Assembly (NCBI GenBank): GCA_017631085.1
Contig: JAGBTY010000005.1
Location: forward strand, 1 to 45,555
Origin: Clostridia bacterium
GTDB lineage: Bacteria; Bacillota; Clostridia; Oscillospirales; CAG-272
Direction: 5' to 3'
Length of the DNA stretch: 45,555 nucleotides
Position numbers and translations under genes: made by a program. Under the pieces are notes generated by a model. The model had not been told where the DNA came from and made no database searches. It saw nothing but the letters and a program-made list of their open reading frames with translations. This document shows positions 17,272 through 21,776 of this stretch, piece by piece; the first letter of the stretch is position 1, and each line of letters begins with the position of its first letter.

Positions 17272-17310
17272 AAACAGCGTAGCCGCGGAATTTCCGCGGC
17301 TACGCTGTTT
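17272..17310 (+). terminator. Strong hairpin after the GH2 gene
   Basis: A near-perfect inverted repeat (AAACAGCGTAGCCGCGG / CCGCGGCTACGCTGTTT) lies about 20 bases after the stop. The T run is short, but stem strength and position favour termination. Confidence 0.7.
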
Positions 17311-17385: not shown

Positions 17386-17450
17386 GCCTTCTCCAGTGGG
17401 AGAAGGTGGATTGACGAGGCATGTCTGCCGATGTCAAGACGGATGAGGTG
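17386..17450. repeat. REP-like repeat, left copy flanking DUF559 gene A
   Basis: A structured repeat. Hairpin 1 is CCTTCTCC/GGAGAAGG (17387-17394 and 17399-17406). Hairpin 2 is TTGAC..GTCAA enclosing GGCA/TGCC (17411-17437). It ends GGATGAGGTG. The stop codon of the DUF559 gene (17451-17453 on the plus strand) touches it directly. The same architecture recurs inverted at 17829-17877. I see no other copy in the window. Confidence 0.8.
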
Positions 17451-17825
17451 TTATTTGGTAGATTTTAAATCAGAAAATTTCAATCCAATATTCTTCAAAA
17501 TATCCGCTGTTACCTCGCTGAAATTGTTTTGTATGCTATCATTGGAATATCGCAAAACAGTTATATTCCATTTTGACAAAGCATTATCCCTTTGAGCATC
17601 GGCTTCCAAGTGTTGAGGCAATAGGTGTTGTCTTCCGTCAACCTCAATAACGATTTTCTTTTCTGCTATGTAAAAATCGACTATATAATTTTCAATATTA
17701 TGTTGCCTTCTTACGTTGAATGGGAGTAACTTTAGAAGATCATACCATAAATGTTTTTCTTCGGGAGTCATATTTTTTCTTAAAGTTCTTGCCGTGGAAA
17801 CAATCTTTCTATTGTATGGTATCAT
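17451..17825 (-). CDS. DUF559 (Vsr-like PD-(D/E)XK) endonuclease-domain protein A
   Basis: A 124-residue DUF559 protein, the fold family of very-short-patch-repair-like nucleases. The conserved order is visible: ARTLRKNMTPEEKHLWYDLL, then NYIVDFYIAEKKIVIEVDGRQH with the presumed metal-binding Asp and Glu-x-Asp, then ITVLRYSNDSI. The start codon is preceded by GGATGAGGAG. This Shine-Dalgarno sequence is the end of the flanking REP-like repeat, so the repeat supplies the translation signal. The gene fills almost the whole space between two inverted repeats (17386-17877) and separates a GH2 gene from a methyltransferase, with which it has no clear functional link. Function and DNA target are unknown. 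Confidence 0.85.
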   Translation of the reverse strand: MIPYNRKIVSTARTLRKNMTPEEKHLWYDLLKLLPFNVRRQHNIENYIVDFYIAEKKIVIEVDGRQHLLPQHLEADAQRDNALSKWNITVLRYSNDSIQNNFSEVTADILKNIGLKFSDLKSTK

Positions 17826-17828
17826 TAT

Positions 17829-17877
17829 AACTCCTCATCCACCACTTCGTGGTCCCCCTTCTCCCGCAGGAGAAGGC
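17829..17877. repeat. REP-like repeat, right (inverted) copy flanking DUF559 gene A
   Basis: Inverted relative to 17386-17450. It begins CTCCTCATCC, then has hairpin ACCAC/GTGGT (17841-17853) and hairpin CCTTCTCC/GGAGAAGG (17857-17876). It overlaps the last 14 codons of the methyltransferase and supplies the ribosome site of DUF559 gene A. Confidence 0.8.
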
Positions 17878-18467
17878 CTTTTAGCAACCGTTACATATGC
17901 GTGCTCGGTCTCAAAATCGTTTATGATTTCTAGATTCGATGTGAAAATGTCATTCCGTATATTATTCGGATTGTCGGGATATATTTTTATCTTTCTATCT
18001 CCCATATCTATAAATTCGCTTTGATTTTTATCGATCGATAAAACAAAAAGTCCATTATCATTCAACAACGAGGAAACTTTTTTAATAGCTGATAGTTTGT
18101 CATTTATGTGCATGAATGTAAGCGACGAATATATTACGTCAAAATTTTGTTCAAATTCAAATGATGTAAAATCATCGCAAATAAGCTTTACATTGTCACA
18201 AGAAGATAAGTTTTCTGTAGCACGTTCTATTGTTTTTTCGGAAATATCTATTCCATATAGACACTTACAATTAGGGGCGATCTTGATAGCAAGCCTGCCG
18301 GTTCCGATGCCGATTTCCAAAACAGTTTTGGTTTTATCTAATTGCATGCTGTCGATAAATTTTTCTCCATCCCACTTATCCATATAATCTCTTAACGGTT
18401 TAGGATCTCGAACAGGATCATTGTTTTCTTCTATAAGCTTATCGTAATGTTTAATTACCTCGTTCAT
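17835..18467 (-). CDS. Class I SAM-dependent methyltransferase with repeat-encoded C-terminus
   Basis: A 210-residue small-molecule-type methyltransferase. The ATG at 18467 follows AAGAGG, while the longer frame from 18488 has no such site. Motif I is VLEIGIGTGRLAIKI (about residues 50-64) with the SAM-binding GxGxG. The acidic residue of motif II lies in LYGIDISEKTIERA, and motifs near DVIYSSLTFMHI follow. The substrate is unknown. The last 14 residues (RPSPAGEGGPRSGG) are encoded entirely by the adjacent REP-like repeat, so the original end was probably replaced or extended by its insertion. The core fold appears complete, so the protein may still work. Confidence 0.8.
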   Translation of the reverse strand: MNEVIKHYDKLIEENNDPVRDPKPLRDYMDKWDGEKFIDSMQLDKTKTVLEIGIGTGRLAIKIAPNCKCLYGIDISEKTIERATENLSSCDNVKLICDDFTSFEFEQNFDVIYSSLTFMHINDKLSAIKKVSSLLNDNGLFVLSIDKNQSEFIDMGDRKIKIYPDNPNNIRNDIFTSNLEIINDFETEHAYVTVAKRPSPAGEGGPRSGG

Positions 18468-18497
18468 TTTTACCTCTTGATAAAACAAGGTGGTTTT

Positions 18498-20917: not shown

Positions 20918-21295
20918 ATGTCGCTTGATTACAACGAAAAGAATATTACTCTTGCCAAAAATCTTCGCAAGAATGCAACGCCACAGGAGAGTCATCTGTG
21001 GTATGATTTCTTATCAAAATATGAAATTAGATTTCAGAGACAAAAAGCAATAGATAACTTCATTGCGGATTTTTACTGTCACAAAGCAAAATTGATTATA
21101 GAAATTGACGGTTCGCAACATTATTCAGAAGAAGGCAGACAAAAAGACGAATTCCGAACCGAAATCCTTGAGGGGTACGGTTTGAAAGTTATCAGATTTA
21201 CAAACTGTCAAATAAACACAAACTTCAGTGGTGTTTGCGAGTATATCAATGCCGTCGTAAAAGCCTCCCTCCGAGAGGGAGGGGGACCGCATTAG
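20918..21295 (+). CDS. DUF559 (Vsr-like PD-(D/E)XK) endonuclease-domain protein B
   Basis: A 125-residue DUF559 protein, a clear but diverged homologue of protein A. Shared blocks are LRKNATPQESHLWYD, DNFIADFYCHKAKLIIEIDG (presumed catalytic Asp and Glu-x-Asp), SQH and LKVIRFTN. GGAGGAG precedes the ATG. The last 11 residues (KASLREGGGPH) are encoded by a REP-like repeat, and the stop codon lies in the loop of a repeat hairpin. The neighbours (kinase upstream, a truncated acetyltransferase downstream) give no functional link. The family is nuclease-like; the target and biological role are unknown. Confidence 0.85.
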   Translation: MSLDYNEKNITLAKNLRKNATPQESHLWYDFLSKYEIRFQRQKAIDNFIADFYCHKAKLIIEIDGSQHYSEEGRQKDEFRTEILEGYGLKVIRFTNCQINTNFSGVCEYINAVVKASLREGGGPH

Positions 21296-21308
21296 CGGTG
21301 GAAGGAGA
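21261..21308. repeat. REP-like repeat of a second family, forward copy, at the 3' end of DUF559 gene B
   Basis: Hairpin CCTCCCTC/GAGGGAGG (21264-21282) is followed by ACCGC/GCGGT (21286-21299) and ends GGAAGGAGA. The layout parallels the repeats around DUF559 gene A (strong hairpin, variable hairpin, purine-rich end), but the stem sequence differs. Confidence 0.75.
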
Positions 21309-21347: not shown

Positions 21348-21394
21348 ACTCTCCCTCAGTCAGCTTTGCTGACAGCTCCCTCCCGGAGGGAGCC
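21348..21394. repeat. REP-like repeat of the second family, inverted copy
   Basis: It reads ACTCTCCCTCA, then hairpin GTCAGC/GCTGAC (21359-21373), then hairpin GCTCCCTC/GAGGGAGC (21375-21393). It is inverted relative to 21261-21308, about 40 bp away. Two further short hairpins follow: GGGCT/AGCCC at 21425-21435 and GCCTTTGT/ACAAAGGC at 21439-21457. Confidence 0.75.
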
Positions 21395-21487
21395 TTAGGA
21401 TGTGCGCACCTTTAGTTAGGGTATGGGCTTAGCCCGATGCCTTTGTAATACAAAGGCGAAACTTGCGTTAAAAGGAGAAGTAGCCGT

Positions 21488-21676: not shown

Positions 21677-21776
21677 TAATTATTTGTTTGTTGCGGAGTA
21701 ATTCTGAGCCATACAAGTAAGCTGACTTATAATTTCTCCGATAAGAACATCACGCTTTAATGAGTTGGGAATTTTT

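Follow-up and report, generated by a model that had tools for sequence, protein, structure and literature searches.

A DUF559 nuclease gene boxed by inverted structured repeats recurs in diverse bacteria and may form a small mobile unit

Introduction

Among described systems, REPtrons join an HUH Y1 transposase gene (RAYT) to the short structured repeats that box it. A second class of repeats, the BoxC/PIT/TM motif, consists of a pyrimidine arm, a loop, a purine arm, a spacer, and a third block, again of purines, that is a mirror image of the purine arm apart from one A-to-T change (PMC4666352). That paper names no partner enzyme, with 0 occurrences of the terms DUF or endonuclease, and reports that a stable triplex has not been seen in vivo in E. 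coli. Vsr-like nucleases of the DUF559 family are known from another setting. According to PMC12907096, SOS induction in Caulobacter cells that lack a cytosine methyltransferase depends on the DUF559 protein VsrA, which has been proposed to act in VSP repair, on TG mismatches at methylated motifs.

Here we analyze a DUF559 gene in a 45,555-nucleotide stretch of a Clostridia genome, referred to below as the window. The first-pass annotation of this DNA had proposed a nuclease-linked REP-like mobilisation unit. That proposal stands in part: the unit is discrete and recurs, DUF559 genes are associated with repeat flanks, and gene-less repeat pairs occur as REPINs do for RAYTs, but the nuclease as mover is something that we infer. 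The annotation had left out the BoxC triplex geometry, the second DUF559 gene of the window, and the larger cassettes that carry many other copies.

Results

A DUF559 gene between two inverted two-hairpin repeats

The unit and its surroundings contain the following features.

17451..17825, minus strand: DUF559 (Vsr-like PD-(D/E)XK) nuclease gene, type A, 124 aa; PF04480 at 95 bits, profile matches to 3hrl and 3r3p
17829..17877, minus strand: repeat copy on the 5' side of the DUF559 gene (pattern match, fold), with hairpin 1 at 17857-17876, hairpin 2 at 17841-17853 and tail GGATGAGG at 17833-17840
17831-17834: likely Shine-Dalgarno sequence GGAG, at the end of the 5'-side repeat copy
17386..17450, plus strand: inverted repeat copy on the 3' side of the DUF559 gene (pattern match, fold), with hairpin 1 at 17387-17406, hairpin 2 at 17411-17437 and tail GGATGAGG at 17441-17448
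17835..18488, minus strand: SAM-dependent methyltransferase, the putative insertion site; matches to general methyltransferase families of Pfam only
20918..21295, plus strand: another DUF559 gene, of type D, with 41% identity to the type-A one; a repeat copy encodes its C-terminus
21263..21307, plus strand: repeat copy of another sequence type (sequence), with stem CCTCCCTC/GAGGGAGG and tail GGAAGGAG
21350..21395, minus strand: inverted partner of the 21263..21307 copy (sequence); the tails face each other with no gene between

The first-pass annotation had described a 124-residue Vsr-like frame between inverted two-hairpin repeats, and this description holds. The frame scores well above the PF04480 cut-off of 20.6 bits, and its other Pfam match is PF18741 alone, below cut-off. 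Both repeat copies fit the pattern CCTTCTCC-N(3-5)-GGAGAAGG-N(14-36)-GGATGAGG, which matches only twice in the window and not once in 100 shuffles. Each copy was said to carry a hairpin, a variable hairpin, and a common end. Folding shows hairpins 1 and 2 in each of them, with the GGATGAGG tail left unpaired (folding z of -4.8 and -4.2; equally good shuffles 0/200), and the sequence of hairpin 2 differs between the two.

Both tails point toward the DUF559 gene. They also adjoin its signals, as had been noted: the TAA stop lies 2 nt from the 3'-side tail, and the GGAG motif ends 5 nt before the ATG. The methyltransferase ORF upstream of the unit extends into the repeat, which encodes its last codons. 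By ORFs and Pfam, the unit contains no transposase, and the DUF559 ORF alone fills the box. The genome has two DUF559 matches, both inside the window. The second, type-D gene is unboxed; its tails-in repeat pair comes after it and runs to 21395.

Three other structured elements lie nearby. Behind the GH2 gene, a perfect inverted repeat of 19 bp (17272-17310) is probably an ordinary terminator. The stretch at 21732-21759, with GATAAGAACATCAC, also occurs at the right-hand end of several type-A units (L062, L069, L080 and others) and looks like another terminal repeat. A structured leader (GGGCTTTGCCC, GCCTTTGTAATACAAAGGC, GAAACTTGCG) at 21420-21472 recurs in loci L119-L134, ahead of many differing small ORFs at dispersed loci; its exact core occurs in 14 of 196 genomes, with no Rfam match in the sources scanned. 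One locus with a copy of this leader, L109, also holds a Gut-1 RNA (Rfam RF01706) at 1262-1333.

The repeat family keeps its hairpins and a mirrored tail

Across the scanned loci we counted 152 distinct window-type repeats with 110 distinct second hairpins. A stem of at least 5 bp forms in 65% of these 110 sequences compared to 3% of shuffles, indicating that the second hairpin persists although its sequence varies. When 12 sources were scanned with Rfam at gathering scores, the repeat had no match, and only a tRNA and the Gut-1 RNA of L109 were found.

Distinct pairs less than 600 nt apart are oriented tails-in in 56 cases and tails-out in 10, with arrays such as L207 contributing several pairs to these counts. 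The tails-in gaps fall into three groups: 13-29 nt (15 pairs), 100-126 nt (8 pairs), and 345-588 nt (33 pairs). The last is the size class of DUF559 boxes and is enriched by design, since the loci were chosen for DUF559. The window's own genome contains three gene-less tail-to-tail pairs (L005, L006, L007), each with a 21-nt gap.

The tail resembles a mirror image of the hairpin's purine arm. When GGAGAAGG is reversed (GGAAGAGG), it matches GGATGAGG at 7 of 8 positions, the exception being one A that becomes T. We searched for this arrangement as an 8-nt all-purine arm, one mismatch allowed, pointing at the gene. Among family DUF559 genes, 30 of 73 have the mirror; a direct copy gives 8 and shuffled arms give 6.2, and of 694 control genes 21 have it. 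A second set of DUF559 ORFs shows less contrast (n=80; 24 mirror, 13 direct, 10.6 shuffled), as do plasmids (n=16; 5, 2 and 2.6) and viral loci (n=24; 11, 8 and 5.2). By eye, the tails of Deinococcus boxes point outward.

DUF559 genes are associated with inverted-repeat flanks

PF04480 is present in 92 of the 196 genomes of the host family, with a patchy distribution and up to 6 copies. For each DUF559 ORF we computed a flank score by matching the upstream stretch to the reverse complement of the downstream stretch. The family set (n=73) is a part of the PF04480 matches and counts the window's second DUF559 gene twice. In this set, 37/73 ORFs reach a score of at least 20, compared to 4/250 control ORFs from the same loci; at a threshold of 25 the numbers are 31/73 and 0/250. 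The other 36/73 score below 20, which counts against the explanation that we favor below. A second set of 80 DUF559 ORFs, drawn from a named genome collection and overlapping the family set, gave 51/80 versus 6/411 controls at 20 or above and 47/80 versus 4/411 at 25 or above. Pooling both sets, 84 of 146 distinct DUF559 proteins score at least 20. The expectation that DUF559 genes carry such flanks more often than other genes was thus borne out, and their association with inverted-repeat flanks is secure.

Plasmid and viral collections were scored as well. In the plasmid collection, 31 records had a DUF559 match; we looked at 17 and scored 16, without controls, and 8/16 reach 20, with hosts in Cyanobacteria, Deinococcus, and Proteobacteria. 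In the viral collection, whose contigs served for flank comparison only, we took the first 23 of 80 loci, 3 of which ran off the contig end, and 8/20 reach 20, again without controls.

Individual loci also drew our attention. The Sphingomonas plasmid locus L269 (1980-2390) has a DUF559 gene between sufB and sufC. The Shinella plasmid locus L392 carries a near-clostridial repeat, CCTTCTCC..GGAGAAGG..GGATGAGG, upstream of its DUF559 gene. In L314, the DUF559 gene is surrounded by the form CAATCTCCCCC..GGGGGAGAT, which we take to resemble the rhizobial RIME elements.

Whole genomes show a similar tendency, although each boxed type-A gene itself adds two repeats to these counts. At least three repeats occur in 36/92 genomes with DUF559 versus 9/104 without (Fisher 4e-7), and at least five in 24/92 versus 6/104 (Fisher 1e-4), both uncorrected for phylogeny. 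Three draft genomes without a DUF559 match are nevertheless rich in repeats (G129 with 27, G123 with 16, G010 with 15).

The boxed unit occupies one site in several states

The GH2-methyltransferase junction was unusable as an empty site: 0/15 DUF559 loci checked had a GH2 match, and the GH2 homologues of G093 and G217 lie on other contigs than the methyltransferase. The informative site is the 3' end of the methyltransferase, which we examined in 11 genomes; where the protein was compared with the window's methyltransferase, identity is 69-77%. Type-A repeats flank a type-A DUF559 gene in G000 and G093, with open frames, and in G108, where the frame is broken and the locus ends inside the right repeat. 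At the same position, type-B repeats flank a type-B DUF559 gene in G214 (open) and G209 (broken). G222 has a gene-less type-B pair with 22 nt between the repeats, whereas G215 and G184 (type B) and G024 (type A) have a solo hairpin and G218 has a half, broken one. In G217 the repeat is absent and the methyltransferase has a normal stop. One site therefore exists in several states, among which we infer the direction of change.

Outside these 11, the G210 methyltransferase (58% identity) has no repeat, and the contigs of G221 and G216 end before the 3' end. None of 14 more distant homologues (52-63% identity) has a repeat directly behind the methyltransferase stop, though 4 of these end in a longer ORF. 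The sites compared have diverged too far to place a junction to the base, and they gave neither a base-exact empty site nor a target duplication. The methyltransferase itself is patchy (22/196 genomes), so its 3' "site" may travel with it.

The first-pass annotation had delimited a unit of roughly 490 bp without a transposase, and a second location agrees with it. In G219 and G207 a window-type unit stands alone behind a kinase-like gene (PF13238; family from L062). The edges of the match there, 1980-2484 and 1985-2487, fall within about 10 nt of the repeat edges at 1987-2478. Among 28 type-A units (148 pairs), similarity ends within 15 nt of the left edge in 63% and of the right edge in 24%, making the left edge the crisp one. 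In genus g57, a single locus is boxed in G153, has hairpins and a DUF559 stub in G199, and has a plain terminator in G198; the filled (G153) and empty (G198) forms differ by about 1.39 kb including an extra gene, beyond the box alone. Overall, mobility of the boxed unit is likely.

Larger cassettes surround many type-B copies

Many type-B copies lie inside larger cassettes with terminal inverted repeats of about 20 bp (CTCTAAAGGACAGTTTT), for example:

L017, 755-1980: cassette
L018, 869-1983: cassette
L154, 1505-1844: cassette
others at further loci

At least one terminal repeat of such a cassette is present at 16 of 21 type-B DUF559 loci, and the other 5/21 have none in the stretch examined. 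Complete DUF559-bearing cassettes span 1.05-1.83 kb, have terminal inverted repeats of about 20 bp, and usually include a cargo ORF, by eye NUDIX-like, lipoprotein-like, or other. In small cassettes, the DUF559 position is taken by a solo hairpin in L174 and by gene-less pairs in L154, L112, L144, and L143. Also by eye, nearly all of 33 cassette units sit between two complementary terminator arms, the intrinsic terminator differing from unit to unit. With up to 2 mismatches, the terminal repeat occurs in 65/196 genomes, compared to 3 sites for a reversed control pattern, and it is absent from the window's contig. Pfam identified no transposase among the ORFs tested in the three longest cassettes (one in L165, one in L166, three in L167). 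By analogy, an IS1272-like enzyme that targets inverted repeats could move the larger cassettes, which for type-B copies are a genuine competing source of mobility.

The DUF559 protein is a conserved nuclease homologue

Profile searches matched the window's DUF559 protein to 3hrl at 1.8e-23, making it a relative of a solved structure, and to 3r3p, annotated "Mobile intron protein", at E 2e-5. We take PDB chain 3r3p to be the homing endonuclease I-Bth0305I. Residues D50, E61, D63, G64, and H67 (D, ExDG, H) are invariant in 20 aligned DUF559 sequences; in the alignment with 3r3p, E61 is kept while D50, D63, and H67 face A, N, and W. Median dN/dS is 0.05 for type-B DUF559 (19 genes, 150 pairs) and 0.09 for type A (11 genes, 21 pairs). 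The protein is thus under strong purifying selection. PADLOC returned weak hits only.

An E. coli DUF559 gene lies near a BoxC copy

The E. coli DUF559 gene is ycjD, located between sapF and fabI. In locus L270 the interval is arranged as follows.

1346: end of ycjD
1514: BoxC 36-mer CCCTCGCCCCTCTGGGGAGAGGGTTAGGGTGAGGGG, about 170 bp downstream of ycjD
1714: start of fabI

The 3' end of ycjD retains what remains of a triplex-like repeat motif, and by eye its upstream side has a different palindrome. Motif 9 of the MG1655 BoxC set, at 1.351 Mb, presumably falls in the ycjD-fabI interval. CCCTCGCCCCTCTGGGGAGAGGGTTAGGGTGAGGGG exactly matches motifs 9 and 16 in the list of 23 BoxC motifs for MG1655 (PMC4666352). 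A sapF-ycjD-fabI query was at least 80% covered in 3362/5426 genomes. The locus is not a clean empty-site test, as an efflux operon follows sapF in the three strains lacking this arrangement that we compared (O157:H7 4276, AZ162, and ST131).

Discussion

We read the box as a small mobile unit, REPtron-like or homing-like, in which a Vsr-like nuclease takes the place of the RAYT transposase, and we hold this reading with barely more confidence than doubt. The DUF559 nuclease would recognize the folded repeat, a hairpin with a purine third strand that may form a triplex, and would cut there. Repair from the gene-bearing copy would then move the complete box to further hairpins or repeats, in many cases directly after the stop codon of a gene. 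Gene-less tail-to-tail pairs and solo hairpins would be non-autonomous or decayed forms of the box. That the nuclease is the engine of the box seems to us a little better than an even bet. Counting against the reading are the frames broken in G108 and G209, the repeat-rich genomes without DUF559, the g57 difference that exceeds the box, the blurred right edge of type-A units, the cassettes at type-B loci, the patchy methyltransferase, the outward tails of Deinococcus boxes, the direct and shuffled arms that also score in the mirror search, and the sites that gave no target duplication or base-exact empty form.

The repeats might instead be strong bidirectional terminators, with DUF559 as cargo that does not act on them and both spread by larger elements, namely terminal-inverted-repeat cassettes placed in terminator loops by an unseen IS1182-like transposase, together with ordinary gene transfer. 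We regard this as unlikely, even though the cassettes enclose many type-B loci and are common among the genomes, solo hairpins do resemble terminators, and IS1272 inserts at inverted repeats without target duplication according to PMC5678879. The type-B loci and the window's contig that lack the cassette repeat do not fit it, nor do the boxed DUF559 genes of Cyanobacteria, Deinococcus, and Proteobacteria. Likewise, a single site holds two DUF559 types in different genomes, and control genes from the same loci rarely have such flanks. An explanation by chance, in which two ordinary terminators happen to surround an ordinary gene, can draw on the hairpins found at the ends of many genes, but the flank scores at the threshold of 25 and the shuffles of the window already refute it for the whole set, leaving it a negligible prospect.

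Autoregulation is a further candidate: DUF559 could be a VSP- or structure-repair nuclease whose gene lies between its own binding sites for regulation, with other enzymes spreading the repeats. The role proposed for Caulobacter VsrA (PMC12907096) and the probable Shine-Dalgarno sequence within the repeat would suit this idea. A patchy gene with as many as 6 copies per genome looks selfish more than housekeeping, as do the broken frames at 2/5 sites and the exchange of types at one site, and we judge the idea improbable. It also seems quite improbable that a RAYT-like or other Y1 HUH transposase encoded elsewhere moves the repeats and that DUF559 genes are trapped between them. PF01797 is found in 73/196 genomes and has a weak link to the repeats (at least three copies in 24/73 versus 21/123, p 0.014). 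However, the link to DUF559 is stronger and persists in Y1-negative genomes, where at least three repeats occur in 17/46 genomes with DUF559 versus 4/77 without (19/46 versus 5/27, p 0.07, in Y1-positive genomes), and the window repeat does not have a GTAG foot.

The same boxed unit at many places in many bacteria suggests that DUF559 may be the missing partner of a widespread repeat class. More tentatively, and at somewhat less than even confidence, DUF559 may be the partner of the whole BoxC/PIT/TM-like triplex-capable class across bacteria, spreading by cutting folded repeats. This would be a second enzyme-repeat pairing, parallel to RAYT/REP and unrelated to it, with E. coli ycjD and the BoxC copies as its relic. 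In the open literature, a coverage that leaves out most subscription papers, we found nothing joining DUF559 or Vsr-like nucleases with such palindromic or BoxC/triplex repeats. If the pairing is real, BoxC-like repeats gain an enzyme and DUF559 gains a job. The REP/REPIN idea would also extend to an unrelated protein, a compact nuclease with a relative of solved structure (3hrl), and the pairing could be tested in E. coli through ycjD.

Comparison with known systems

The window unit differs from a DDE transposon or MITE in having no transposase. In the comparison with I-Bth0305I, taken as the identity of 3r3p, the nuclease domains are homologous and both genes would spread selfishly, but the active-site residues are only partly common to the two, and we do not class the window protein as a member of the EDxHD group to which I-Bth0305I belongs. 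I-Bth0305I also has DNA-binding parts beyond this domain, and its target is almost 60 bp long (PMC3943268), whereas the window DUF559 is a bare domain. Vsr and Caulobacter VsrA belong to the same nuclease superfamily, and VsrA carries DUF559. VsrA is proposed to act in mismatch repair at methylated motifs; the methyltransferase beside the window unit, in contrast, has general Pfam matches only. IS1272/IS1182 elements insert at inverted repeats (PMC5678879), as the outer cassettes appear to do, but are insertion sequences of about 1.9 kb that bear a transposase.

Other comparisons concern repeat families. The CGTC REPs are palindromic repeats said, in PMC3733652, to have no dedicated transposase. 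We rejected them as the window repeat since most of their stems begin with AT and finish with a CCA tail. The REPIN/RAYT system resembles the window unit in that short structured repeats form inverted pairs and box a nuclease gene, while gene-less inverted pairs and solo copies lie elsewhere, such pairs being present in the window's genome. It differs in its enzyme, a HUH Y1 transposase rather than the Vsr-like DUF559, and in its GTAG foot, in place of which the window repeats end in the purine tail GGATGAGG.

The exact BoxC consensus, CCCTCNCCCN3-6GGGNGAGGGN3GGGNGAGGG, has 0 matches in the window, where the repeats differ in their letters, have arms of 8 nt, and carry a second hairpin at the position of the 3-nt spacer. 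The geometry of the BoxC/PIT/TM motif is nevertheless that of the window repeat, with a tail that mirrors the purine arm and the same A-to-T change. Its motifs also form inverted tails-in pairs, with 16-27 nt between them by our computation for 4 of the 5 pairs in PMC4666352.
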